Below are positions 41,597 to 56,875 of a stretch of DNA of 64,000 nucleotides, piece after piece. The notes below the pieces were generated by a model. That model worked only from the letters and a program-made list of their open reading frames with translations, made no database searches and had not been told where the DNA came from. Positions within the stretch are counted from its first letter, which is position 1. The number at the start of each line of letters is the position of its first letter. Both the position numbers and the translations under genes were made by a program. This DNA is from Gammaproteobacteria bacterium (lineage in GTDB: Bacteria; Pseudomonadota; Gammaproteobacteria; Steroidobacterales; GCA-2729495). The stretch spans positions 1 through 64,000 of the forward strand of contig JAJFJS010000038.1 of NCBI GenBank assembly GCA_021773815.1, in the 5' to 3' direction.

Positions 41597-42016
41597 CTAG
41601 TTAAATGCGCCGATTAGCGCTCCCATGATCGACAACGACACGATATGGAAGCTGCCGTTGACGAAAATACGCACGATCGGTCGCCGATCAAATATCGCCG
41701 AGATGCCCAGTGCCGTCGTGACGAAAAAACAGCCGATCAGCACGCCGACAATCACGCCGTCGCGGATCGAAGCATTCGGGCCCAGCACGGCCGCCAGCAG
41801 GCTGCCGGTCAGCCACTGGAACAAGAATGCGATGACGAATATCAGCTGGACGTTCCGTTCCCCGGCCGCACTGGCGGCCGCCTTCTCGGCATCGCGGACG
41901 CCGAACCGGCCGAACACGCTTGGCGCATACCAGACGCCGGCCAGCAGGAACGACGCGAGCGTCGCTGCCAGAACGCCCCACCAGTTCACGAATTCAAAAT
42001 TGACCGTAATTTCCAT
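41597..42016 (-). CDS. DUF1761 family membrane protein
   Basis: This 139-residue protein has four predicted transmembrane segments: [58 protein letters not shown] and [16 protein letters not shown]. The DUF1761 pattern includes the WYAPSVFG motif. The function is unknown. GGAAGGA precedes the ATG. It lies upstream of and parallel to the lipoprotein hydrolase gene with a 20-base gap. Confidence 0.85.
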
Positions 42017-42152
42017 AGTTCCTTCCCGGATCGACGGCGACGATGCCGTTCGATTATAGGCGCGTTGACCGAAAGCGAAACCCCGCCACGCATTGACAGA
42101 GCCGCACGAGTCAAGGATCGTTGGCGCCGTGACAGGCAGCTGCGGCCCGACG

Positions 42153-42899
42153 ATGAGACGACTTCTGGTTTTCCAACATGTGCCCTACGAGATACTCGGC
42201 AATCTCGACCCGTTGCTGCGCGACGCAGGGTTCCGCATACGCTACGTCAATTTCGGCCGCGAGCCGGAGGCCCGACCGGATATCACGCGCTATCACGGTC
42301 TGATCGTCCTCGGCGGACCGATGAACTGCGACGAGTGCGATCGCTATCCCCACCTCGCGACCGAAGTCGAACTGATCCGGCAAACCATCGAGGCCGGCAA
42401 GCCCGTGCTCGGCATCTGCCTCGGCGCACAACTGATCGCCCGTGCACTCGGCGCGCGCGTGGCGCCGAACGACAAAAAAGAAATCGGCTGGTACGAACTC
42501 AACCCCACCGAGGCCGGGCACGCAGACCCGCTGTTCGCCCCGCTCGCCGCCAGCCAGATGATTTTTCAATGGCACGGCGACACGTTCCAGATCCCGCGCG
42601 ACGCCGTGCACCTGGCAACTTCGCCGGACTGCCGCAATCAGGCATTCCGCTACGGCGACAACGTCTACGGCCTGCAATTTCATCTCGAAGTCGACGAACC
42701 GATGATTCTGCGCTGGCTGCATACGCCGTCGATGGCGCGCGAGGCCGAGGCGCTGGGCGGCCCCGGCAACACGGACCGGATCGCCGCGCAGACGAAGGAC
42801 CATATCGAGCATTCCGTATCGCTGGGCAACCGGGTATTCGGCGAGTTCATCCGCCGATTCCATACGCATCCGCGGCGCCGGGCCCTGCCGTCGCGCTGA
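42153..42899 (+). CDS. Class I glutamine amidotransferase-like protein
   Basis: This 248-residue protein has the GATase triad: nucleophile Cys in [17 protein letters not shown], His in YGLQFHLEV and the Glu two residues on. [11 protein letters not shown] is the family's substrate loop. Stand-alone members include gamma-glutamyl hydrolase or GMP-synthase-like proteins of unknown amide acceptor. ATG 42153 was chosen because the fold begins there; GTG 42129 is an alternative. It ends 89 bases before the copA start and may be only a neighbour. Confidence 0.82.
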
Positions 42900-42988
42900 C
42901 GGGGGCAGCGGCTCACAGCGCCACATTGCGACGTGGCGCCGACAGCCGCTACACTGGCGGATCGACTATTTACCGGAGCTCATTCCCC

Positions 42989-45448
42989 GTGAGTGTGACC
43001 GCAACAGCCGCCACCGATGCAAAGATTCGAACCGCAGGCCTGCCGATTCGCGGCATGACCTGTGGCGCCTGCGCAGCGCGGCTGGAAAAGGCACTGACAC
43101 GGGCCACCGGCATCACGGTCGCGGCCGTTAATTTCGCGCTCGAGCGCGCCGACGTGTCGTTCGACCCGGCGGCCACCGACATCGGGTCGATAACAGGGGT
43201 CGTGCGCAACGCCGGCTTCGAGGTGCCCGAAGAATCGTTCTCGCTGGGCGTCGGCGGCATGACCTGCAGCGCCTGCGCCGGACGCGTCGAGAAGTCGTTG
43301 TCGAGGCTGAGCGGCATCATCGAGGCCAACGTCAACATTGCGCTGGAACGTGCCGATGTCCGCGCGGTTGCCGGCATGGTGAGCATCGATGCATTGGCCG
43401 GCGCCGTCCGCGACGCCGGTTATGAACCGCAGGTCGCCGCGGCGACGGAGCGGCAGGCAGATGCAGACCGTGCGCATCGGGATCGGGAAGCGGCGCAACT
43501 GGCGCGCGAAAAACGCATCCTGCTGCTGTCAATCGCGCTGTCATCGCCGCTGGTCCTGCACATGGCGCTCAAGTTCGTCGGTATCCACTTCATGCTCCCG
43601 ATGGTCGTCGAGATCGCACTGGCAACCCCGGTGCAGTTCCTGATTGGCGCTCGCTTCTACAAGGCCGCCTACAAGGCGCTGCGGGCGCGCTCGGCGAACA
43701 TGGATGTCCTCGTCGTCATGGGTACGACCGCCGCGTATGCCTATAGCTGGTACCTGATCGCCACACTCGGCAGCGACGCCGCCGGCAAACTGTATTTCGA
43801 GGCGTCGGCCGTGATCATTACGCTGGTGCTGCTCGGCAAGTTCATGGAGGCGCGGGCCAAACGCGGCACGACTGCGGCAATTCGGCAATTGATGGACCTG
43901 CGCCCGGAAACTGCACGTGTCAGGCGCGACGGCAGCGAACAGCAAGTGTCAATCGGCGAGGTCGCCAGCGGCGATATTGTCATCGTCAGGCCCGGTGAGC
44001 GCATCCCGGTCGACGGTAAGGTTGTCAGCGGGCAGAGCGACGTCGACGAGGCGCTGATCACCGGCGAGAGCCTGCCGGTCGCCAAGCATCCCGGCGACAT
44101 CGTGACCGGCGGCGCGATCAACGGTACCGGCCTGCTCGATATCCAGGCCACGCACGTTGGCGAAGACTCGACGCTGGCGCGAATTATCCATCTCGTCGAA
44201 AACGCGCAGGCCGGCAAGGCGCCGGTCCAGCGCCTCGTCGACCGGATCAGCGCGATCTTCGTGCCGGTCGTCGTCGGCATCGCCGGCCTGACGTTTGTCG
44301 GCTGGTATGCATTTGGCGGCGCCTTCGAACCGGCGCTCATCGCTGCGGTATCGGTACTCGTGATCGCCTGCCCCTGCGCACTGGGCCTGGCGACACCGAC
44401 GGCGATCATGACCGGTACCGGCGCCGCGGCGCGCTCGGGCATCCTGATCAAGGACGTGGAATCGCTCGAACGCGCCCACCGACTGAATGCGATCGTTTTC
44501 GACAAAACCGGCACGCTGACCGCCGGCAAGCCCGCCGTGGTCGAAATCCACGCTTTCGACGGCGACGACAAGGACGTGCTGCGTGCGGCCGCGGCCGTCC
44601 AGCAGGGCAGCGAACACCCGCTGGCCCGTGCGATGCTCGAACGCGCCCGAGAAATGACCATCACGCTGCCACAGGTCACGGCGTTTCAGAGCCGCACCGG
44701 TTTGGGCGTCACCGCGACGATTGAGGGTCAGTCCATCGTTTGCGGCAACCTGGCCATGCTGCAGGAACACGGCATCGAACCGATCGAACCCGAGCGGGCG
44801 GAAGAACTCGAATCACAGGCCCGAACTGTCGTCTGGGTCGCGCGCAGCGGGGCCGTCATCGGCACCATTGCAATCGCCGATGTGTTGCGCCCCGAAGCCA
44901 TCGATGCGATCGCGGCCCTGCGCAAACTCGGCGCCCGCACGTTGATGCTGTCCGGCGACGCTGAACGCGTCGCCGCCCGGGTCGGCGCGGAGGTCGGCGT
45001 GGACGAGGCCCGCGGCTCGGTCAGGCCCGATCAGAAGGCACAGGCGATCGACGCATTGCGTGCCGAAGGCTATGTCGTCGGCATGATCGGCGACGGCATC
45101 AACGACGCCCCGGCGCTGGCCGCGGCCGACGTCGGCATCGCGATGGGCAGCGGCACGGACATCGCGATGGAGACCGCCGGCATCACGCTGATGCGCACCG
45201 ACCCGCGCCTCGTCGCGGGCGCCATCTCCGCGAGTCGCGCGACGTTCCGCAAGATCAAGCAAAACCTGTTCTGGGCCTTCGTCTACAATGTCGTCGGGAT
45301 TCCGCTGGCGGCTGCGGGCGTACTGACGCCGGCGATGGCCGGCGCGGCGATGGCGCTCAGCAGCGTCAGCGTCGTCAGCAATTCCCTGCTGCTGCGTGGC
45401 TGGCGCCCCGAGTTCATGCGCGCGGAGACCCGCAACAGCCGGCATTGA
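42989..45448 (+). CDS. copA: Cu(+)-exporting P1B-type ATPase with two N-terminal metal-binding domains
   Basis: This 819-residue protein has two HMA domains with GMTCGAC (C25, C28) and GMTCSAC (C93, C96). Transmembrane helices follow, including the metal-binding CPC at C461-C463 (ACPCALG). The actuator has TGES, the phosphorylation site is DKTGT at D505, SEHPLA is the HP motif, and GDGINDAP surrounds D702. CPC with these HMA motifs indicates Cu(+) or Ag(+) export. GTG 42989 has GGAG about ten bases before it. A small chaperone gene follows 32 bases later. No CueR-type regulator is adjacent. Confidence 0.95.
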
Positions 45449-45844: not shown

Positions 45845-47209
45845 CTAATCTCTCTCGCGCATCTCCGACACCGCGCCGTCACGCGACGGGATATGTCCCG
45901 GTGATTTGATGCGCACAATGATCGCCAGCAGCATGACGATAGCATTGAGTGTGCCGATCAGTGCAAACGGCGCGGCGGGTCCGACGGTGTCAAACAGGCG
46001 CCCGCCCAGTCCGGATGCGAAGAAGATACCGATCGCGCCGCACATATTGAACGCACCGACGACGGCGCCTCGGCTCAGACGCGGCGCCTCGGCACTGATC
46101 AGCGTCGTCGCTCCAAAGAACGAGCTGATCTGACCGATGCCGAGCAGCACGAAAGACGGTATCGCGGCCGCGGACAGCGGTTCGTCGACGATCCACATCG
46201 CGCCATAACCGATCGCCGCCAGCGCCATACAGAAAATCAGCCCCGAGACGCGGTTGAAGCGATCCATGAACGAGCCGAGGACCAGCAGCCAGACCAGCGC
46301 CGCGCCCGATGCGAGTCCGAACAGGCCGGCGCCGCGGGATGCCGCCACGGCCGGGTCCATACCCTGACCGATACCTGCAACCGTGCCCCACAGCACGACG
46401 AACGTGCCGAGGATCACGAGGTCGCTGCGCGCGACGAATGCGCCCGAGTAGGCGAGCGCGATACGCGGGTTGCGGACGGCGGCGGCGAATCCGCTGATGA
46501 TGAGTTCGCGCATCGGCAGACGGTCTTCTTTGGCAACCGGCAGCCCCTTCTTCAAGCCAACCAGGTAGAGGACGGACGAGAACGCGCAGGCGATAAACAC
46601 CATGGCGTGGATGATCCGCGTCGCCGTGATCGCATCAAATCCCGCATTGATCAGCGCGGGCGGCACATAACGGCCGAACACCACAGTCACGCAGATGACG
46701 CCGAGACCGTTGAACACGCCACCCAGGGCGACGAACTTGCCCCGCGACCGATCCTGCGGATAATCGGTAACGATCGTCTGCAGCATGCCCGTCGACATGC
46801 CCAGACCCGCGGCATACACCGCGCGATACACGATCAGGTGCGTGACGGACTCGGCAAACGGATACAGCAGGTAGCCGACGCCCATGATCAGCATGCCGAC
46901 GGCAAACAGTTCGCGCCGGCCGATCCGGTCGGCGAGCACGCCGACGACACCGAAGACCAGCAACTGCACGACCTCGGTCACGATGACCAGGTCGCCGCTG
47001 ACCGTGCCCTGCTCGCCCACCGGCATGCCGAAGTTTGCGTTCAGGACCAGCGCCGTGCCGGTCGAGATGAAGGTCAGCAGCCCGATCGTCGCGAACGCGG
47101 CGTAACAAAAAACGACGGCGTTCAGCCGCGTAATGCCGGGCAAGAACCAGACGAACAGGAATCGCCTGCCGCCCTGTACGTGCTCCGTTTCAGTCGTTCC
47201 GGTATTCAT
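45845..47209 (-). CDS. MFS transporter (paralogue 1 of 3)
   Basis: This 454-residue protein has about 12 transmembrane segments. The MFS loop motif is seen as GVLADRIGRRELFAVG. The segment GAVVGAFNMCGAIGIFFASGLGGRLFDTVGPAAPF is closely echoed in the two related transporters at 47.3-48.7 kb and 51.4-52.7 kb. ATG 47209 has GGAGG nine bases upstream. It is the last gene of the minus-strand unit. The substrate is unknown; a shared one is inferred from duplication in the same operon. Confidence 0.85.
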   Translation of the reverse strand: MNTGTTETEHVQGGRRFLFVWFLPGITRLNAVVFCYAAFATIGLLTFISTGTALVLNANFGMPVGEQGTVSGDLVIVTEVVQLLVFGVVGVLADRIGRRELFAVGMLIMGVGYLLYPFAESVTHLIVYRAVYAAGLGMSTGMLQTIVTDYPQDRSRGKFVALGGVFNGLGVICVTVVFGRYVPPALINAGFDAITATRIIHAMVFIACAFSSVLYLVGLKKGLPVAKEDRLPMRELIISGFAAAVRNPRIALAYSGAFVARSDLVILGTFVVLWGTVAGIGQGMDPAVAASRGAGLFGLASGAALVWLLVLGSFMDRFNRVSGLIFCMALAAIGYGAMWIVDEPLSAAAIPSFVLLGIGQISSFFGATTLISAEAPRLSRGAVVGAFNMCGAIGIFFASGLGGRLFDTVGPAAPFALIGTLNAIVMLLAIIVRIKSPGHIPSRDGAVSEMRERD

Positions 47210-47302
47210 GCTCTACGAACCTCCGCGCTGCCCTTGGGGCAAGTCGCTGTATCCGGGCCGAATCGCGTCCCGTCGCCACGGGCATGCGGCATCTCACTCT
47301 GA

Positions 47303-48655
47303 CTAAACCGCCTCCGGTTGCTCGCCCTGCCCCAGAATCGGACCCGGGGACTTGATGCGGACAATGAGCGCAAACACGGCAACGAATCCATTCATGATGC
47401 CGATCAGCACGAAGGGCGCCGCCGGCGCGACCGTATCGAACAGGATGCCGCCGAACCACGAGGCGACGAGAATCCCGATCGCCCCGGAGGTATTGAACAC
47501 GCCGACGACGGCGCCCCGTTGCAACAACGGCGCCTCCTGGCCGATCAGCGTCTGTGCACCGAGGAACGCACTGATCTGCCCGATGCCGAGCAGCACAAAG
47601 AAAGGCCACTCCGCGCCAAGGTCGAGCGGGTTGTCGATGAATCCGGCGGACATATAGCCGATCGAGCCGAGCGCCATGCAGAGCAGCATCGCCGTCACGC
47701 GGTTTAATCGGTCCAGCAACGGAGCAATGACGGGGATCCAGAACAGCGACGCGGACGACGCGATCACGAAGATCCACCGCGACTGGGACACGGCTTCCGA
47801 CGGATCAATGCCCTGATCGACCGCGACGGTTACGCCCCACAGAATCGAGAATGTACCCATAATGACCAGGTCGCCGCGCGCTACAAACGCCGCGGCATAG
47901 GCGAGCGCAATACGCGGATTGCGCGCCGCACGCACGCCGCTTGCCGCCAGTCGGCCAAAAGACTGCTGCTCCCTGTCTCGAGACGGAACGCCGCGCTTGA
48001 GCCCGAACCACGCGACCAGCGCGCCGATCATGCAACAGCCGAACGAGGTGAAATGCGTATACAACGACGCCGTGACCTCATCGAATCCGGCGCCGACCAG
48101 TATCTCCGGCAGTTTACCGAGCAGTACCACGACCATGACGACACCGAGCCCGTTGAACATGCCACCGAACGCGACGAGTTTGCCGCGCGAGCGCTCCTGC
48201 GGTATATCGGTCGTGACGGTCGCCAGCATGCCGGTCGCAGTACCGAGGCCGATGGCATACAGGACACGATAGAACGTCAGTTCACCGATCGAATCGGCAA
48301 ACGGATAAAAAAGATAGGCGAGCCCCATGACCGCCATGCCGATGGCCAGCAGGTGACTGCGCCCGACGCGGTCGGCAAGGATGCCGACGAACGCGAACAG
48401 CAGGATCTGCGTAATCTCGGTCGCGAACACGAGCTGCCCGGAGATCGTGCCCTGCTGGTCCGTCGGAATCTGCATGTGCGTATTCAGCACCAGCGTCGTC
48501 GCGACACTGATAAAGGTCAGCATGCCGATCGTCGAGAACGCCGTGTAGAGATAGGCGACGAAGTTGCCGCGCGTGATGCCGGGCGCCAGCCACAGAAACC
48601 AGACCTTGATCCCCTCTGGCTCGTTGTTGTTTGGCTTGTTGTCCAGTTCGGGCAT
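47303..48655 (-). CDS. MFS transporter (paralogue 2 of 3)
   Basis: This 450-residue protein has the same 12-helix layout and loop motif (GILADRVGRSHLLAIG). Its tail segment GAVVGVFNTSGAIGILVASW is close to that of paralogue 1. Similarity at the N-terminus (WFLWLAPGITRGNFVAYLYT vs FVWFLPGITRLNAVVFCYAA) also links the copies. ATG 48655 is preferred to the TTG one codon before. It lies between the aldehyde dehydrogenase and paralogue 1 genes with gaps of 58 and 93 bases. Confidence 0.85.
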   Translation of the reverse strand: MPELDNKPNNNEPEGIKVWFLWLAPGITRGNFVAYLYTAFSTIGMLTFISVATTLVLNTHMQIPTDQQGTISGQLVFATEITQILLFAFVGILADRVGRSHLLAIGMAVMGLAYLFYPFADSIGELTFYRVLYAIGLGTATGMLATVTTDIPQERSRGKLVAFGGMFNGLGVVMVVVLLGKLPEILVGAGFDEVTASLYTHFTSFGCCMIGALVAWFGLKRGVPSRDREQQSFGRLAASGVRAARNPRIALAYAAAFVARGDLVIMGTFSILWGVTVAVDQGIDPSEAVSQSRWIFVIASSASLFWIPVIAPLLDRLNRVTAMLLCMALGSIGYMSAGFIDNPLDLGAEWPFFVLLGIGQISAFLGAQTLIGQEAPLLQRGAVVGVFNTSGAIGILVASWFGGILFDTVAPAAPFVLIGIMNGFVAVFALIVRIKSPGPILGQGEQPEAV

Positions 48656-48713
48656 CAAAATATATCTCCGGAGCCTGCGGCAACGCCACGGCTATCTTGG
48701 TAAGCGGTAATCG

Positions 48714-50162
48714 TTATTGAATGATGTGAACGGCTTTGACCCGGGTGTAGCTCAACACTTCGTCCAGGCATTCTTCGCGGCCCAGGCCGCTGTTCTTCCA
48801 GCCGCTGAATCCGGTTCCCAGGTAATGCCGTCCCGTGCCGTTCACCCAGACGAGCCCCGACTGCAGTGCACGCACCGTGCGCATCGCGGCCTTGAGGTCG
48901 TTGGTCCAGACGGCGGCCGTCAGGCCGAGGTCGAGGTCATTGGCCATTGCGATGGCCTCATCGGCCGTCCGCCATTTCAGGACGGCCAGCACCGGGCCGA
49001 AGACTTCCTCGCGCGCGACGCGCATGTCCTGCGTGACGTCACCGAATACCGTGGGTTCGACCCAGAACCCACGCTCGAATTGATCACCGGCCGGTCGACC
49101 GCCGCCGTTGATGACGGTCGCCCCCTGCGCCTTCGCCGAGGCGATGATGTCGAGGATGCGACGGTAGTGCGGTTCCGAATTGACGGGCCCCATGCCGGAC
49201 GCCGGGTCGAGCGGATCACCGACCCGGATCGCCGCGACGCGTTCGCGAATCCGCTCAACCACTTCATCGTACAGCGACTCGTGCAGCAACAGCCGACTCG
49301 TCGAACCGCACGATTGTCCGGACCACGCAAAATTCATGCCGTTGACGGCAGCCTCGGCGATTGCCTCGGGATCCGCATCGGGGAACGCGATCATCGGGTT
49401 CTTGCCGCCGAGTTCGAGTGAAACGTGCTTGACCGCCGTCTCGGCCGCCGCGCGCTGTATTGCCATGCCGGTGCCGACCGAGCCGGTAAATCCGATGCGC
49501 GGCACCGCCGGATGGCGCACGATCGCATCACCGACGACGACGCCGTGGCCCGAGACGATATTGACCAGGCCCGGCGGCAGGATCTCGGCACAGATTTCGG
49601 CCATGACGCTCGCCGACAGCGGACTCTGGTCCGGTGACTTCAGCACGACGGCATTGCCGGCGATCAACGGCGCACCGAGATGTGCAGCCGCAAACAGGAA
49701 CGGATGATTGAAAGGCACGATACGCCCGACAACGCCGTACGGTTCGCGCATCGTGAAATGAATATTTTCGACCGTCGCCGGGACGCTCTCGCCCTTGATC
49801 TCCATGCCGAGGCCGGCAACGAAATCGATGTATCCCGCGGCGAGCACGATATCGCCGGCCAGGCTCGCAATCGTATTGCCGGTGTCGGCAGCTTCCAGCG
49901 GCAGAACGTCGGACCGCGCGCGAATCGCGTCGGCGAGCCGGCGCAACAGGCGTCCGCGTTCGAACGCATGCAACGCTGCCCATTCGGGCTGTGCTCGTTG
50001 CGCGGCCGCAACCGCACGGCCGACGTCGCCGACCGTGCCCGCCGGCACACGGCCGTGCACTTCGCCGGTCGCGGGATTGATCGAATCCATCCATTCGCCG
50101 CCGTCACTGGCGACGAATTCGCCGCCGATCAACATCGGTCGGTCACCAAAATGCTCTGTCAC
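48714..50162 (-). CDS. Aldehyde dehydrogenase family protein
   Basis: This protein of about 482 residues has the NAD-binding and active-site motifs GVVGRIVPFNHPFLFAAAH, IGFTGSVGTGM, VSLELGGKNPM (Glu) and WSGQSCGSTSRL (nucleophile Cys). The C-terminal KNSGLGREECLDEVLSYT is typical. It resembles betaine-aldehyde or other short-chain dehydrogenases, but FAWSGQSCGS differs from the GQxC consensus of those named enzymes. GTG 50162 has AGGGGAC upstream and fits the fold start; ATG in DRPMLIG is an alternative. In the MFS-DUF1838 unit it may oxidise a product of the transported compound. Confidence 0.85.
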   Translation of the reverse strand: MTEHFGDRPMLIGGEFVASDGGEWMDSINPATGEVHGRVPAGTVGDVGRAVAAAQRAQPEWAALHAFERGRLLRRLADAIRARSDVLPLEAADTGNTIASLAGDIVLAAGYIDFVAGLGMEIKGESVPATVENIHFTMREPYGVVGRIVPFNHPFLFAAAHLGAPLIAGNAVVLKSPDQSPLSASVMAEICAEILPPGLVNIVSGHGVVVGDAIVRHPAVPRIGFTGSVGTGMAIQRAAAETAVKHVSLELGGKNPMIAFPDADPEAIAEAAVNGMNFAWSGQSCGSTSRLLLHESLYDEVVERIRERVAAIRVGDPLDPASGMGPVNSEPHYRRILDIIASAKAQGATVINGGGRPAGDQFERGFWVEPTVFGDVTQDMRVAREEVFGPVLAVLKWRTADEAIAMANDLDLGLTAAVWTNDLKAAMRTVRALQSGLVWVNGTGRHYLGTGFSGWKNSGLGREECLDEVLSYTRVKAVHIIQ

Positions 50163-50332
50163 GAGTCCCCTGTTTCTATTACCGGCAGAACGCGGGCTCA
50201 ACTGTAGGCAGCAGTTCGGCGCGGGGGAAGCTTTGGATGGCGCAGTCGGGAAAACTGACCGCGTGACGGCAGCCACGGAGAAAGTGACCGATCGGTCACG
50301 CGCCGCGCGGCGCCGTTTGCGCTCAATTGAGA

Positions 50333-51343
50333 CTAAGTTGCATCTTTGACGGGCGCGGGTTGTTGCGTCTCGCGGTAGTTTTCGAGACTCGACAACCCGA
50401 CCGGCGTCCAGACCTTCGGCGCTTCAAAATACTTCGACAGGTGTTTCTCGGCATAGTCGACGACCGGACGCGGCAGCACATCACCCGGGTGCGCACAGGT
50501 ACCCATGAATGCGGCGTACTGGCAGTTGCCCGGCGCCTGTCCCATCAACATCCACGGCAGCCACGGCGTAATCCGATTCCACGTGCCGTGATAATCGAGA
50601 CTCGTGATCTTCGGATTCTGCATGTCGGCCGCCTTGACGTGGTGCGCGAAGAACTCCGACACCTGCGCGATCGGGCCCGACGACTCGCGCGGCCATGCAT
50701 CGGGTTGCAGCGAATTCGGATAGGCCAGGTGGATATGCATCTCCATCTCCAGCCAGTCACCGTTCTGCACCCACGGCAGAATGAACGGCACACGCTTGGG
50801 CGGCGCCTTTTTCTCGTTCAGCCCGCCGAATTCCGGCGGCGCCGGGAAGAACGGCTCGATCAGGTAGTTGTACGGATCATTGGCGACATGCACGACCCGC
50901 ACGGTCTCGTCGGTCAGCGGGTTACGCCACTCCTCCAGCACCTCGTTGCTGCGCAGGTCCGTGTACAGGATGATCTCGCGACAAATGCGTTCAATCGTCC
51001 CGTCTTCCCGCTCGTTGAGCCGGATCACGCCGAATCCCTGCGCACCGAACAGGTCCTGTATGCGCTGCATCGGCCGATGGCCCATGACGTAACCCTTGAA
51101 CCAGAAATATTTTTGCGCGCCAAATTTCAGATCGCTCTGCAGCCGCGCGTACGCGAGCTGATTGCCGCGCCCGGTCAGCAAATCCAGATACGGGCCTCGC
51201 AACGCGGCGCCGCCGACGGACGTGCCGGCCTGCATGTGCGCCTCGGCCTCGGCACGCCGGCCGAACGCACTCATCGCCATCGCCGCAGCGCCGGCATAGC
51301 CGACGCCGGCAAATCCATTCTTCAGAAAATCTCGTCGTTGCAT
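50333..51343 (-). CDS. DUF1838 family protein, Tat-exported
   Basis: This 336-residue protein has a twin-arginine leader MQRRDFLKNGF followed by a hydrophobic stretch and a cleavage-like AEA. The body is beta-rich with many Trp/Tyr/His, e.g. YFWFKGYVMGHRPM, HIHLAYPNSLQPDAWPR and NRITPWLPWMLMGQAPG. It matches the DUF1838 family, whose activity is unknown. Export by Tat implies folding with a cofactor in the cytoplasm, but no metal-binding motif is obvious. It lies 15 bases after paralogue 3 of the MFS genes, so co-transcription is likely. Confidence 0.85.
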   Translation of the reverse strand: MQRRDFLKNGFAGVGYAGAAAMAMSAFGRRAEAEAHMQAGTSVGGAALRGPYLDLLTGRGNQLAYARLQSDLKFGAQKYFWFKGYVMGHRPMQRIQDLFGAQGFGVIRLNEREDGTIERICREIILYTDLRSNEVLEEWRNPLTDETVRVVHVANDPYNYLIEPFFPAPPEFGGLNEKKAPPKRVPFILPWVQNGDWLEMEMHIHLAYPNSLQPDAWPRESSGPIAQVSEFFAHHVKAADMQNPKITSLDYHGTWNRITPWLPWMLMGQAPGNCQYAAFMGTCAHPGDVLPRPVVDYAEKHLSKYFEAPKVWTPVGLSSLENYRETQQPAPVKDAT

Positions 51344-51358
51344 AATCGTTGCACTCCC

Positions 51359-52705
51359 TCAGGTAGCGGCCGAATCCGCGGATGCCGACGCTCGGCGTCG
51401 CAGAATCAAATAAACAGACCACAATAGCAGCGCGATGTTCGCACTGGCGACAAACAAAAACGGGCCAACCTGGCTGACATTATCGAACAAATAACCGCCG
51501 ACGAGCGCCACGGTCAGGATGCCGAGCGCGCCGAAGAAACTCCACATGCCCAGCACGGCGCCGCGGCCGCGCTCCGGCGCTTCTTTGCCGATCAGCGACG
51601 TGGCCGCAAGATTTGCGGTCATCTCGCCCATACCGATCAGCGCCGCGCAAATATACATGCCGCTGCCGATCGGGTTATCGAGCAACCACAACGACCCGTA
51701 GCCGACGCCGGCGACGGCCATCGCGATCGCCAGCCCGTACAACCGGTCGATCCTGTCCAGAAAGTAGCCGGCAATCGGCGCCCACGGCAGCGTCGCACCC
51801 TGCACGACGAGGTAGAACGTCAGCGCAGTCTTCGCCGCTTCGGCCGTCGGCATACCCTGGCGGATGCCTTCCTGGGTCAGCCACAGCGTGAAGAACGTGC
51901 TCATGACGGACAGGTCACCGCGCGACACGCTCGCCGCCGCGTAGGCCAGCGCGATGCGGCCGTTGCGGGCCGCACGCAGGCCGACCTTGAAGGTCGCCAG
52001 CAGCGGCTCGCGTTGCTCGAGTTGGCGCGGCGCGCCGGGCTTGAGCGTCAGCGCGATCACGACGGCGACGATCAGGCACAGGCCGGACATGATCCAGAGC
52101 CAGTAACGTCCGACCCAGACCGGGTCGATCCCCATGTCGGAGAACCAGACGGGCATGCCGCGCATGACCGCGAGAATGACAACGAGGCCGAGTCCGTTGA
52201 AGATGAAACAGGTCGCCAACATTTTCGCCCGGCAGCGCTCTTGCGGATAGTCGTTGGCGACGGCCGGCAGCATGACGATGTTGTTTGCGGCGCCGGCGGC
52301 GAAGACCATCCGGAATACGAACAGCATCAGCAGCGATCCGGCCAGCGGGTACAAAAAATAGGCGAGCGAGAGCAGGATGAACGCGGCGATGTACAGCGGC
52401 TTTCTGCCGATCTTGTCGGACATCGCGCCGATTGGCCCGAGCAGGCACAGCAGCACGATCTCCTGCACGAACGTCAGGTTGCCGGCGAGCGTGCCCTGCT
52501 CGTTCTGCGGGATCAGCATCAACTCGGTCAGCACATACGGCTGACTCGCGTTGATAAAACTCATCGACGCAATGCCGAAGAACGAGGCAAAAAACAGGCC
52601 GAACAGATTCTTGGCCGACACACCGGGCATCATCGTCAGCGGGCCGAACCGCAGTCCGTCGGTCGGGGCCGTCTGCTCTGAGTCTGGTTTTTCTGCTGCG
52701 CTCAT
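51359..52705 (-). CDS. MFS transporter (paralogue 3 of 3), first gene of the unit
   Basis: This 448-residue 12-helix MFS protein has loop GAMSDKIGRKPLYIA and the tail segment RGAVLGMWSFFGALGILTVALV, aligning with paralogues 1 and 2 but more distant. It is the first of five minus-strand genes and is followed by the DUF1838 gene 15 bases later. The sequence upstream, TTAGAA before the ATG, has no strong ribosome site. Confidence 0.85.
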   Translation of the reverse strand: MSAAEKPDSEQTAPTDGLRFGPLTMMPGVSAKNLFGLFFASFFGIASMSFINASQPYVLTELMLIPQNEQGTLAGNLTFVQEIVLLCLLGPIGAMSDKIGRKPLYIAAFILLSLAYFLYPLAGSLLMLFVFRMVFAAGAANNIVMLPAVANDYPQERCRAKMLATCFIFNGLGLVVILAVMRGMPVWFSDMGIDPVWVGRYWLWIMSGLCLIVAVVIALTLKPGAPRQLEQREPLLATFKVGLRAARNGRIALAYAAASVSRGDLSVMSTFFTLWLTQEGIRQGMPTAEAAKTALTFYLVVQGATLPWAPIAGYFLDRIDRLYGLAIAMAVAGVGYGSLWLLDNPIGSGMYICAALIGMGEMTANLAATSLIGKEAPERGRGAVLGMWSFFGALGILTVALVGGYLFDNVSQVGPFLFVASANIALLLWSVYLILRRRASASADSAAT

Positions 52706-52877
52706 TTCTAATTGATTCTTATCAGTCTGGAAGCATGCAAGTGTTCGTTATCCTACGCGAATCGGAGGCCAGATATGCGGTCATTGACCGCACGATGACC
52801 GGGATTTTGCGCACCGGGCCGATCCATGCGACAGTCACTCCGTTCCGCCCATGACACGGAACGGGAGCGGAAAGACC

Positions 52878-53915
52878 GTGAGAATACTCAAGAACATTCT
52901 GATCGCAATCGTCGCTTTGGTCGCCGTCGCCGTGCTCGGCCTTTACGGGTACCTCCGGTTCGGGCTGGCGCCGGCACATTTCGCCGGTCAGTGCGACGCG
53001 CTGGAACTGGGCGAGAGCGCCGAAGACATGCAGATCGACCGCGAACGCGGATTTGCCTATCTGTCGCTGATCGACCGCAGGACGCTCGCCCAGGGCGGCG
53101 ACGCGCAGGGCTGGATCGGGCGCCTCGACCTCAACGCGGATACGCCGGTCGTCGAACCGGCGCTGATCGACCCGCCCGCACACTTCCGGCCGCACGGCCT
53201 GAGCCTGCACATTGATGACGAGCGCCAACGAACGCTGGTCGTGATCAATCATCCCGTCGACCGTGGCGTCGGCGCCGAACACATCGAGCGGTTCATCGAG
53301 GAAACGCCGGGGCGGTTCCGGCATGCCGGAACCTTCACCGATCCGTTGATCGCGCGTCCCAACGATCTCGTCGCCGTTGGCCCCGGGCAGTACTACATCG
53401 CCAACGACAGCCCGCCGAACAGCGGCGAACTGACGAACCTAGTTTTCGTCGACGCCGACACGAAAACGGCGCGCACCGTTGCCGGCGACATCCGGTCCGG
53501 CGGCGGCATCAACGCATCACCGGACGGACGCACGCTGTACGTCGCCGAGACCGGCGGCAATGCGCTGCGCATCCTGACACGCAACCCGGCGGACGGGTCA
53601 GTGACGACGACGGCCGACATCGACCTGGGCACGTCACCCGATAATATCGACGTCGCGGCCGACGGTAGCCTGTGGATCGGCGCGCATTCGAGCCTGCTGG
53701 CGCTGGTCATGCATTTCATCACCGGCGCCGATGCGCCGACACAGATCCTGCGCGTCGTCCCCGACGCAACAGGCGGCGCGATCATCAAGGAGATCTACAT
53801 GAATCGCGGCGATGAAATCTCGGCCGGCAGCGTCGGCGTCACCGACGGCAATCGCCTGTTGATCGGCTCGATTACGGCGCGCCGGATCCTGGTCTGCGAG
53901 CGGGACGGCGCCTGA
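52878..53915 (+). CDS. Membrane-anchored paraoxonase/arylesterase-like beta-propeller
   Basis: This 345-residue protein has an N-terminal signal anchor (ILIAIVALVAVAVLGLYGYL). A six-bladed PON/SMP-30-type propeller follows: INHPVDRGVGAEHIERF, RPNDLVAVGPGQYYIAND (the Asn/Asp calcium-site segment), GGGINASPDGRTLYVAETGG and LGTSPDNIDVAADGSLWIGA. Paraoxonases are calcium-dependent lactonases and esterases. GTG 52878, preceded by GGAGCGGAAAG, is preferred to ATG 52851, which has no ribosome site. It is divergent from the MFS/DUF1838 unit and may be regulated with it. The substrate is unknown. Confidence 0.8.
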   Translation: MRILKNILIAIVALVAVAVLGLYGYLRFGLAPAHFAGQCDALELGESAEDMQIDRERGFAYLSLIDRRTLAQGGDAQGWIGRLDLNADTPVVEPALIDPPAHFRPHGLSLHIDDERQRTLVVINHPVDRGVGAEHIERFIEETPGRFRHAGTFTDPLIARPNDLVAVGPGQYYIANDSPPNSGELTNLVFVDADTKTARTVAGDIRSGGGINASPDGRTLYVAETGGNALRILTRNPADGSVTTTADIDLGTSPDNIDVAADGSLWIGAHSSLLALVMHFITGADAPTQILRVVPDATGGAIIKEIYMNRGDEISAGSVGVTDGNRLLIGSITARRILVCERDGA

Positions 53916-53933: not shown

Positions 53934-55715
53934 TTATTGGCCGGGCGCGCCGGGCTCGACGACAGTCACGGTCTGCCCGGGCCGCACATTATCGATTCGC
54001 TGCACGAGACCGCTGGGCCAGGTCACCTCGATCAGATCGATTGCATCGGCGTCACCGAGACCGAACAACAGTCGCGGATCATTCCCCGAATTATAGCCGT
54101 GTGCGCTCGTGTGCTCCCGGTACTGCACGAGATCCCCCGCGACAACCTTGACACGCGCGCCGTAACCGGACCGGTTGCTGCGCGTACCTGTCAGCGCGAC
54201 GCGGACCCAGCGGTTCGCGCCGCCGGTGTTCAGCAGCAACTGGTTTTGCTGTTCGATGCCGACGCGCTTGCCCATGCTGTAGTACGTACGGTTCGTCACG
54301 AACAGGTCCGGCCAGCCGTCGTCGTTGATGTCGGCCGCACCGACGCCGCTGCCGATGCCGACACCCTCGGCGCCGGATCCGGCGGTGACATCCGTGAACG
54401 TCAGGTCACCGTTGTTGCGGTATAACCTGTTGCCCGCCGGCTCCCAGGCAATATAGAACTGTACAAACACCGGCATGCGAATCACGTCGTTGATCAGCAC
54501 GTTCGATTCGCCGCCGTTGTTGACGTAAATATCCAGCAGGCCATCATTATCGAAATCGGCCATCGCGCAGCCGCGTGCGCCGCCCATATCGCCGACTCCC
54601 GACGACAGTGTAATGTCATCGAACCGCAATTCGCCTTTTTCGACGAGGCGGCTGACGATCAGACGATTGGCCTGATCGGCGGTCGGCAGGAATATATCCT
54701 GATCGCCGTCGTTGTCGATATCGCCGAGACAGGCGCCGTTCGCGTCACCGGGATTCAACAGCGCGAGTGCGCGCGGCGGCTTGCGGTTGCGCGTGATATC
54801 GGTAAACGTCCCGTCACCATCGTTGCGGAATGCGACGTTGCGGTCACCCTCGATCGTCACGAGCAGATCGAGCTGTCCGTCTTGGTCAAAATCAGTCCAG
54901 TTCGGCGCGCCCTGCGCGTTGGCCTTCAGCACCCGGCCGACGACCCCGGTACCGGTCTGTGCCGTGACATCGGTGAACGTGCCGTCGCCGTCGTTGCGGA
55001 ACAGGATGTTGTCGACGTCATAGTCGGGCAGTTTCACGTACAGATCGAGGTCACCGTCGCTATCGTAGTCGCCCCATGCGACGCCGGCGCCGCTGACGCT
55101 GATGCCACCGACCCGCGCGTCATCTTCATTGCCCGCGCGCACGAAGCCCGCGGCCACGGTGATGTCCTCGAAATCCGGTTCGCCGGTCTCGGTCATCAGG
55201 TTGCGGTATGCCGTGTGCGGAATCGGCGTCTCGCCACGGTTCGTCGTCGGCATATTGGCGACAAACATGTCCATGTCGCCGTCATTGTCGATGTCGCCCC
55301 ATGCGGCGCCACGCGCCAGACCGCGACCGTTGTCGATACCACGCGCAACGGCAACATCCTGGAAGTTGCCCCGTCCGTCATTTTCGAACAGCCGGTTGCC
55401 GTGCCCGGGCAGGTGCGCCTCGGTCGACACATAGATATCGAGATCGCCGTCCTGATCGTAATCGACGAAGGTCGGTCCCGTGCTGTTGACGGCGCGATCG
55501 GCGACCCCGGCCCGCTCGGCGTCATCAACGAACCGGATCGGCGCCGTCGCAGCAGCCACACTGCCGGCCGGAAGCAGGCAGGCCGGCAAGAAGACAAGTA
55601 GTGCGCACAACCAGCCGGCAGGTTGTTGAAAAAGTTTCGGGCAGCGCGAACCCGCGTTGTAAAAAGAACCCCGCTGACGATTGACCGGGAGCTCATGACC
55701 TGACGTGTGCACCAC
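53934..55715 (-). CDS. CRTAC1-like FG-GAP/VCBS and ASPIC/UnbV secreted protein
   Basis: This 593-residue exported protein has an internal hydrophobic leader (about 33-55). At least seven EF-hand-like calcium loops follow: DYDQDGDLDIYVS, DIDNDGDMDMFVAN, DYDSDGDLDLYVK, DFDQDGQLDLLVT, DIDNDGDQDIFLP, DFDNDGLLDIYVN and DINDDGWPDLFVT. The C-terminus carries the ASPIC/UnbV domain (NRWVRVALTGTRSNRSGYGARVKV). The VCBS blades form a propeller stabilised by calcium. Such proteins are secreted and may bind carbohydrates or matrix. The tandem GTG start at 55715 has CGGAG eight bases before it. It is convergent with the paraoxonase gene. Confidence 0.88.
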   Translation of the reverse strand: MVHTSGHELPVNRQRGSFYNAGSRCPKLFQQPAGWLCALLVFLPACLLPAGSVAAATAPIRFVDDAERAGVADRAVNSTGPTFVDYDQDGDLDIYVSTEAHLPGHGNRLFENDGRGNFQDVAVARGIDNGRGLARGAAWGDIDNDGDMDMFVANMPTTNRGETPIPHTAYRNLMTETGEPDFEDITVAAGFVRAGNEDDARVGGISVSGAGVAWGDYDSDGDLDLYVKLPDYDVDNILFRNDGDGTFTDVTAQTGTGVVGRVLKANAQGAPNWTDFDQDGQLDLLVTIEGDRNVAFRNDGDGTFTDITRNRKPPRALALLNPGDANGACLGDIDNDGDQDIFLPTADQANRLIVSRLVEKGELRFDDITLSSGVGDMGGARGCAMADFDNDGLLDIYVNNGGESNVLINDVIRMPVFVQFYIAWEPAGNRLYRNNGDLTFTDVTAGSGAEGVGIGSGVGAADINDDGWPDLFVTNRTYYSMGKRVGIEQQNQLLLNTGGANRWVRVALTGTRSNRSGYGARVKVVAGDLVQYREHTSAHGYNSGNDPRLLFGLGDADAIDLIEVTWPSGLVQRIDNVRPGQTVTVVEPGAPGQ

Positions 55716-55774: not shown

Positions 55775-56641
55775 CTAACCCAGCAGCAGCGTATCGAGGA
55801 TGGCCGCCGTCAGCAGCAATCCGAGTTGCACGATCGACGCGGCGAAGGTGCGCCACGCATGTGAAATATTCGGCTCACGATACAGCCGGACGCTCGCATA
55901 GACGAAGAACGCCCCGCCACTCGCGGCACCCGCGAGGTAGATCCAGCCCATGCCGTACCAGACCGGTACGATCGACAGCGCGACGAGCACGACGGCGTGG
56001 GCGAGAATCGTCCCGGTCGACACGGCATCGCTGGCGATGACCGGCAGCATCGGGACGCCGGCGGCTGCATAATCCTTTCGGCAGGCAAACGCGAGCGCCC
56101 AGAAATGCGGCGGCGTCCACAGGAACAGCACCAGCGCGAGAATCAGCGGCGCCGGCGCGAGTGTCGCACCGGTCGCGGCGGCGCCGGCCATGACGGCAAA
56201 GCTGCCGGCCAGCCCGCCGATGACGATATTGAGCCAGGTTCGGGTCTTGAGCCACACCGTGTAGACGATGCCGTAGGTAAACGCGCCGAGGAAAATATAG
56301 ACGGCCGCCTCAATATTCGTTGCCAGCGCGGCGGCGGCGAGTGACACGAGCAGCGCCAGCGCCAGCGCCACCCACCAGTAACCGCTGGCACGCAGCGAAC
56401 CGGTCACGAATGCACGCTTGCGCGTGCGCTTCATGCGCGCATCGAGGTCGCGCTCGTAGAGCTGGTTGAATGCACCGGCCACCGATGAGGACACCAGCAC
56501 GGCGAGGCCGAGCACGAGCACCTGCCACGATGCCGGCGGCGCACCGGGGCTGACGGCAATGCCGGCCATCGCGCAGGCCATAATCAGGAATCCGAGGCGA
56601 ACCTTGCCCGCCTGATAGATCAGTTTGAGTGTCCGTAGCAT
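55775..56641 (-). CDS. ctaB: Protohaem IX farnesyltransferase (haem O synthase)
   Basis: This 288-residue UbiA-family integral membrane protein has nine predicted helices. The first Asp-rich motif is NQLYERDLDARMKRTRKR (N-x3-ERD-x-D-x4-RT). The second helical region holds WLNIVIGGLAGSFAVMAGAA, and LFLWTPPHFWALAFA is the haem O synthase hallmark. It attaches a farnesyl group to haem B for haem O/A-type oxidases. Cox genes and ctaA are not nearby, which is unusual because ctaB usually sits with them. ATG 56641 is preferred; in-frame extension adds 18 residues without support. Confidence 0.93.
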   Translation of the reverse strand: MLRTLKLIYQAGKVRLGFLIMACAMAGIAVSPGAPPASWQVLVLGLAVLVSSSVAGAFNQLYERDLDARMKRTRKRAFVTGSLRASGYWWVALALALLVSLAAAALATNIEAAVYIFLGAFTYGIVYTVWLKTRTWLNIVIGGLAGSFAVMAGAAATGATLAPAPLILALVLFLWTPPHFWALAFACRKDYAAAGVPMLPVIASDAVSTGTILAHAVVLVALSIVPVWYGMGWIYLAGAASGGAFFVYASVRLYREPNISHAWRTFAASIVQLGLLLTAAILDTLLLG

Positions 56642-56875
56642 GTTGTCTTGCGGTGTGTGAACCGGGTCCGGCAAAGACCGCGAAGTGTACCGCATCCGGG
56701 GAAAAAATTAAGACTGCGTCTAAGGGATTGCCCGTGTCTCGGTGGCCCGGTTCATGGCCGGACGTGACGACGGTTTGGCGGGTCGGACCGCCTGACCGCC
56801 GTGCCCCAGCGACCCCCGGCTCGGCAACGCGGGTGCCGGCACCGCGCCGGCCACCGAATTTGCGTCAAGCGGCCG

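Follow-up and report, generated by a model that had tools for sequence, protein, structure and literature searches.

We analyzed a 64,000-nucleotide stretch of contig JAJFJS010000038.1 (the window) from a gammaproteobacterium of the order Steroidobacterales and describe in it a gene unit in which three transporters of the major facilitator superfamily (MFS), a DUF1838 protein, and an aldehyde dehydrogenase (ALDH) are encoded on one strand and a protein resembling paraoxonase (PON) on the other. This unit is real, old, and vertically conserved, and not a chance grouping. A first-pass annotation of the window had proposed five one-strand genes at 45845-52705 together with a divergent paraoxonase-like gene, and the open reading frames (ORFs) and Pfam matches, the latter assigned above curated cut-offs, agree with this layout. 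The features, in window coordinates, are the following.

45845..47209, minus strand: MFSa, MFS transporter of 454 aa (Pfam MFS_1, 96 bits), final gene of the unit
47303..48658, minus strand: MFSb, MFS transporter of ~450 aa (Pfam MFS_1, 114 bits), a lineage-specific extra carrier
48714..50135, minus strand: ALDH, aldehyde dehydrogenase of 473 aa (Pfam Aldedh, PF00171, 485.6 bits versus a cut-off of 23)
50333..51343, minus strand: DUF1838 protein of 336 aa (PF08894, 141.9 bits versus a cut-off of 25), with the twin-arginine motif RRDFLK
51359..52705, minus strand: MFSc, transporter from a separate MFS clade (Pfam MFS_1, 123 bits), first gene of the unit
52706..52850, no strand: divergent intergenic stretch of 145 bases, by its position the putative promoter region of both arms
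52851..53915, plus strand: PON-like propeller protein of 354 aa, with an N-terminal hydrophobic helix and a phmmer match to PON1
53934..55559, minus strand: FG-GAP/ASPIC-UnbV repeat protein (Pfam; longest ORF to 55715), a probable associate of the unit
55775..56695, minus strand: ctaB, heme O synthase (NCBIfam cyoE_ctaB, 240 bits versus a cut-off of 210), flanking anchor
42989..45448, plus strand: heavy-metal P-type ATPase (NCBIfam ATPase-IB_hvy, 639 bits versus a cut-off of 346), the other flanking anchor

The gene order on the minus strand is MFSc, DUF1838, ALDH, MFSb, MFSa, with the PON-like gene pointing the opposite way. Gaps amount to 15 bases between DUF1838 and MFSc, 55-58 bases between MFSb and ALDH, and 93 bases between MFSa and MFSb. 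ALDH and DUF1838 are separated by 197 bases, or by 56 with the longest ALDH ORF, which reaches 50276; the start at 50135 is preferred by codon usage. A sigma-70 scan found no site inside the divergent stretch, and the promoter and terminator scan performed no better than on shuffled sequence. Comparison of the five minus-strand genes with close relatives gave dN values of 0.09-0.17 and dS values of 1.0-2.2, a ratio of about 0.1 whose reading is limited by the near-saturation of dS. The genes are under purifying selection, and since dN is well below dS in all five, MFSb included, none of them looks decayed. MFSa ends about 400 bases away from the P-type ATPase gene. The ORF of the latter is open over 41645-45448 (1267 aa) and overlaps another ORF at 42180-42899, and codon usage favors a start near 42989.

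Conservation of the unit in two families

Proteins of DUF1838, MFSa, and PON served as queries against 40 genomes of the window's family (f1); the loci were fetched, and their gene order was established by tblastn. Across the family, the unit is placed between ctaB and the heavy-metal P-type ATPase gene, and in 22 of the 40 genomes (G000, G006-G014, G019-G023, G025, G026, G028, G030, G031, G035, and G039) DUF1838 adjoins a PON, MFSc, ALDH, or MFSa-type gene. Contig ends prevent judgment in three genomes (G027, G029, and G038). Four contain no recognizable unit (G015, G016, G018, and G024), with a single MFS gene between ctaB and the ATPase gene in G016 and one MFS gene beside the ATPase gene in G015; the other eleven are considered below. 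Several of the counted genomes are incomplete, and the unit genes are split over contigs in G001, G006, G009, and G023. MFSc is absent from G011-G014, and MFSc, ALDH, and PON are absent from some g8 genomes. A CRISPR-Cas-like set of the Csx17 kind was seen by eye beside an MFS copy in G022 (L109:8911-16000).

Relatives of the PON-like protein occur in 55 of the 296 genomes of the order. A second family (f14) has genomes of 1.3-1.6 Mb with a G+C content of 0.36-0.41 in the stretches analyzed. All ten of its PON-bearing genomes were fetched; in every one of them PON and MFSc diverge, and DUF1838 comes next after MFSc. An MFSa-type gene lies downstream in 7 of the 10 loci, within the stretch fetched, and ALDH is absent from this version of the unit. 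The f14 in-unit DUF1838 proteins are 52-56% identical to that of the window, and the six genes tested group with the f1 genes in a 34-row clade (support 97/95) of a tree that omitted distant and short rows. Likewise, a single clade (support 100/99) unites MFSc of f1 with those six f14 MFSc genes that were tested. In f11, f13, and f3, where 6/7, 7/8, and 1/1 loci were fetched, the PON relative does not adjoin DUF1838.

The DUF1838-MFS neighborhood, which the first-pass annotation had suggested seeking in other genomes, thus recurs in two families with MFSc upstream, an MFSa-type gene downstream, and PON. Had the grouping been local chance, MFS copies would be scattered or DUF1838 never adjacent to them; the presence of DUF1838 inside the unit in 22/40 f1 genomes and beside MFSc in 10/10 PON-bearing f14 genomes, and the synteny kept across f1 and in f14, contradict this. 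Because the f14 unit keeps PON, MFSc, DUF1838, and the MFSa-type carrier without ALDH, these four genes are the older core, and ALDH, initially counted as a member of the unit, is an f1-specific addition outside the older arrangement.

The three carriers had been assigned to one subfamily. They are related, but unequally so, as MFSa and MFSb share 54% identity and each shares 35-36% with MFSc. The MFSa clade occupies the matching position in most f1 genomes. In the tree, MFSb occupies a clade of 3 rows whose sister is the larger MFSa clade; it is present in G000, G037, and G038 of one genus and absent from the fourth genome of that genus, G039. G002 and G005 contain two MFSc-type genes and did not take the MFSb route. 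Three-carrier versions, reached by these two routes, occur in only 5/40 family genomes, and the third carrier was added late and offers no general clue. The original interpretation therefore stands in its view of a conserved unit, but neither in the weight it gave to three paralogous carriers nor in placing ALDH in the older unit.

Around this core, the PON side of all ten f14 loci encodes a ~200-aa protein without family assignment and a short-chain dehydrogenase. Further out, nine of the ten contain a flavin amine-oxidase-like gene and an ASPIC/UnbV gene, the tenth contig ending earlier. The FG-GAP/ASPIC-UnbV gene is similarly placed in G037, G038, G039, G008, and the f14 loci reaching that far. 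The f14 short-chain dehydrogenase (L164:6075-6857 and counterparts) starts with a signal-like hydrophobic stretch, a feature that NAD(P)-dependent enzymes do not usually have. Relatives of the flavin amine-oxidase-like protein stand beside DUF1838 in 4/28 rows inspected by eye, two of these being one locus in sister genomes, and the gene adjoins PON in 6/6 fetched f11 loci (L147, L148, L149, L150, L153, and L155). Most f1 genomes carry their best relative at some other place. These placements are suggestive of the enzyme as a partner of DUF1838 and PON, without establishing it. L149, the f11 locus that was annotated, also encodes an FAD monooxygenase, an arylmalonate-decarboxylase-like protein, a short-chain dehydrogenase, a MetE-like protein, and a ketoacyl synthase III, a set that suggests a pathway.

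DUF1838 proteins within and outside the unit

The N-terminus of the unit's DUF1838 protein, MQRRDFLKNGFAG, contains a twin-arginine motif recognized by eye, and the RR motif is retained in those f14 in-unit orthologs that were inspected. Two positions, G84 and G272, do not vary across 19 diverse DUF1838 paralogs, and N141, V150, M265, and P309 are retained in at least 17 of them; E123, W139, N155, E230, and R257 are likewise invariant in a 14-row alignment. DUF1838 had no match among PDB sequences, whether searched with the single sequence or with a profile (thresholds of E 1 and E 10), and relatives were found neither in viral contigs nor in the phages searched. Structure prediction, put forward in the first-pass annotation as a way to look for a pocket, did not deliver one: AlphaFold2 on five sequences reached a pLDDT of 37 for the whole protein and of 46.6 (pTM 0.49) for the mature part, and Foldseek with the mature-part model returned no match reaching E 0.001. 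Given these poor models and the lack of a Foldseek match, we claim no DUF1838 fold; the low-confidence model hints at a mostly-beta protein. We found no function for PF08894, and this identifier is unmentioned in the literature searched, the coverage of which leaves out most subscription journals.

DUF1838 genes are numerous in these bacteria. The window genome (3.87 Mb, 149 contigs) contains 11 PF08894 rows, corresponding to 9 genes after merging of split rows, and twelve f1 genomes carry 4-16 DUF1838 genes apiece. PF08894 is found in 93/296 genomes and 22/68 genera of the order. At E 1e-40, the window's DUF1838 protein has matches in 5/369 genomes of the class and 3/398 of the phylum, its own and family genomes counted. 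Its closest named records are Gammaproteobacteria metagenome-assembled genomes, one of which is labeled Steroidobacteraceae. In f13 genomes, such as G102, G095, and G122, a first look yielded 13 to 42 DUF1838 candidates each, of which at most 9 were scored, suggesting a very large expansion. A DUF1838-MFS pairing as a genome-wide rule was rejected, since among the matches listed 6 of 120 non-core genes lay within 5 kb of a carrier of this subfamily versus 5.0 expected (P 0.39). In this test, split rows were hand-merged to 132 entries, the 12 core entries were removed, and genome size replaced contig layout. Outside the present locus, DUF1838 is thus not a general neighbor of this MFS subfamily.

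Other DUF1838 genes are found in various settings, and a few of them do adjoin an MFS gene. The order cytochrome c, PQQ dehydrogenase, DUF1838, MFS in G010 and G039 (L118:7985-12722 and L115:3503-8218, with domains confirmed for G010), where the MFS gene belongs to the subfamily of the unit's carriers, is a putative independent periplasmic-oxidation setting for another DUF1838 paralog, and G003 contains a DUF1838-MFS-DUF1838 arrangement. A TonB receptor adjoining DUF1838 recurs in Novosphingobium P6W, two f146 genomes, G459, G021, and G022; in G459, a flavin amine-oxidase-like gene follows the pair. A relocated ortholog of the unit's DUF1838 gene (L048, L049, L050, and L059) adjoins biotin-synthesis-like genes, bioA/bioD by eye. 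It is tempting, if rather doubtful, to regard DUF1838 proteins as a large and previously unrecognized group of exported periplasmic enzymes, many of them with a twin-arginine motif. Together with MFS carriers, TonB receptors, and two kinds of enzyme, the PON-like hydrolases and the flavin amine-oxidase-like ones, they might break down small molecules imported over the outer membrane. The present locus would then be the best-conserved such pathway seen, even in streamlined genomes.

Candidate role in lactone or ester uptake and breakdown

We propose, with a probability of about 0.45, that the bacterium uses the unit to take up and degrade a small lactone or ester of probably hydrophobic character. 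The compound would cross the outer membrane, via the TonB-dependent receptor in those relatives that have one beside the unit. The PON-like protein, putatively membrane-anchored, would then open the lactone or ester in the periplasm, the DUF1838 protein, predicted to be exported by the twin-arginine route, would perform a second periplasmic step, and two MFS carriers of different clades would carry the product over the inner membrane. In family f1 only, ALDH would oxidize an aldehyde intermediate in the cytosol. The cell locations in this scheme are predicted from N-termini inspected by eye, and the order of steps, direction of transport, and substrate class are likewise putative.

The PON-like protein matches mammalian PON1 over residues 55-349 (phmmer E 4e-23) and retains equivalents of PON1 E53, D54, H115, H134, N168, D269, and N270. 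The catalytic calcium ligands of PON1 are E53, N168, N224, D269, and N270, and its His pair is H115/H134. E53, N168, D269, N270, H115, and H134 align to E58, N171, D264, N265, H115, and H134, respectively, the match of H134 relying on wild-type PON1, as the aligned PDB chain carries H134R. These ligand and His columns are at least 95% conserved in 27 PON-like sequences. TonB receptors adjoin the unit in five relatives (G009, G021, G022, G023, and G031), suggesting import over the outer membrane. Moreover, PON-MFSc-DUF1838 is retained in the small, low-G+C f14 genomes, where idle genes should not last, which supports a function of the unit. In the plasmid search, MFSa had no relatives at E 1e-30, and PON-like relatives were found only in Azospirillum, at ~30%.

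Among curated models, MamH/MamZ come closest to all three carriers. With the MamH model NF040986, the carriers score 165, 175, and 129 bits versus a cut-off of 300, and they are therefore filed as MFS_1 (PF07690) only. The main rival, although we consider it unlikely, is efflux or detoxification: the carriers would export a toxic compound or its product, whose inactivation would fall to the PON-like protein together with DUF1838 and ALDH. Efflux models (2_A_01_02 and tet) match the carriers, if weakly and far under their cut-offs, the sole solved MFSc relative found is the MFS transporter 3wdo (E 5e-5), and a metal-export ATPase is encoded next door; PON homologs are known for detoxification. 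Yet the nearest curated models, all scoring below cut-off, are MamH/MamZ and not drug pumps, the TonB receptors that adjoin the unit in G009, G021, G022, G023, and G031 point inward, and a nutritional role explains at least as well why streamlined genomes have retained the unit.

Several observations weigh against uptake and breakdown of a lactone or ester. The survey of neighboring genes recognized no pathway; the catabolic locus surmised in the first-pass annotation is plausible, but the survey gave it no substrate. The window's own unit has no TonB receptor inside. At the position of the PON1 calcium ligand N224, the 27 aligned sequences have the glycine of an SGGGIN motif, and we therefore call the protein PON-like instead of filing it as a paraoxonase; for the same reason, lactonase activity is not assured. 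The altered position 224 also speaks against signal quenching or processing, in which the PON-like protein and DUF1838 would modify a lactone signal, exogenous or the cell's own, and the carriers would move the signal or its product. While the relationship of the gene to PON would suit such a role, PON lactonases being known to open acyl-homoserine lactones, no LuxI or LuxR gene is among the annotated neighbors, and ALDH and two carriers would be superfluous, which makes this role improbable.

Further points against the uptake proposal concern the tie between DUF1838 and its neighbors. In 11/40 f1 genomes (G001-G005, G017, G032-G034, G036, and G037), the unit keeps carriers and ALDH and has no DUF1838 inside, which leaves the earlier suggestion of DUF1838 as the key enzyme unproven. 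The DUF1838 ortholog is relocated to another locus in G032, G033, G034, and G036, all of one genus, and DUF1838 paralogs outside the unit show no enrichment in the vicinity of these MFS relatives. With ctaB as an anchor, the shared order might partly reflect a slowly rearranging housekeeping neighborhood. These observations would be expected if slow rearrangement of the ctaB region merely kept the genes together and DUF1838 belonged to a separate pathway. We regard this as distinctly unlikely, as the PON-MFSc-DUF1838 order is constant over two families of very different genome size and G+C content, and the genes inserted around it vary while the order stays. Thus, this DUF1838 copy is fixed in one setting over two families, streamlined genomes included, and a defined partner set of a PON-like protein, two carrier clades, and ALDH lets DUF1838 activity be probed directly.

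Comparison with known systems

By title and abstract, no unit of this kind was found in the literature on Steroidobacteraceae, TonB-dependent receptors, and paraoxonase, a body of sources that mostly excludes subscription journals. Individual components do have known counterparts. The closest solved relatives of ALDH are betaine aldehyde dehydrogenases (E 1e-108), and the betaine aldehyde dehydrogenase model TIGR01804 is its top NCBIfam match, yet the score of 437.9 bits falls under the equivalog cut-off of 668.6. Its substrate is therefore not assignable, and the protein is filed as a member of the Aldedh superfamily only. The window's PON-like protein shares with mammalian PON1 a sequence match over the propeller, most of the calcium ligands, and the His pair; it differs in being bacterial, in its N-terminal hydrophobic helix, and in the glycine replacing N224.

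For DUF1838 itself, ArtU of the aurantimycin cluster is listed as a member of the family in the single paper naming the domain in the literature searched (PMC5031334), and its setting differs from that of the present unit. Closer to the locus described here is plasmid pP6W1 of Novosphingobium sp. P6W, which carries a TonB receptor followed by two DUF1838 genes. This stretch has no PON, ALDH, or MFS gene of the window type, but it places a receptor next to DUF1838, as do some members of the window's family.

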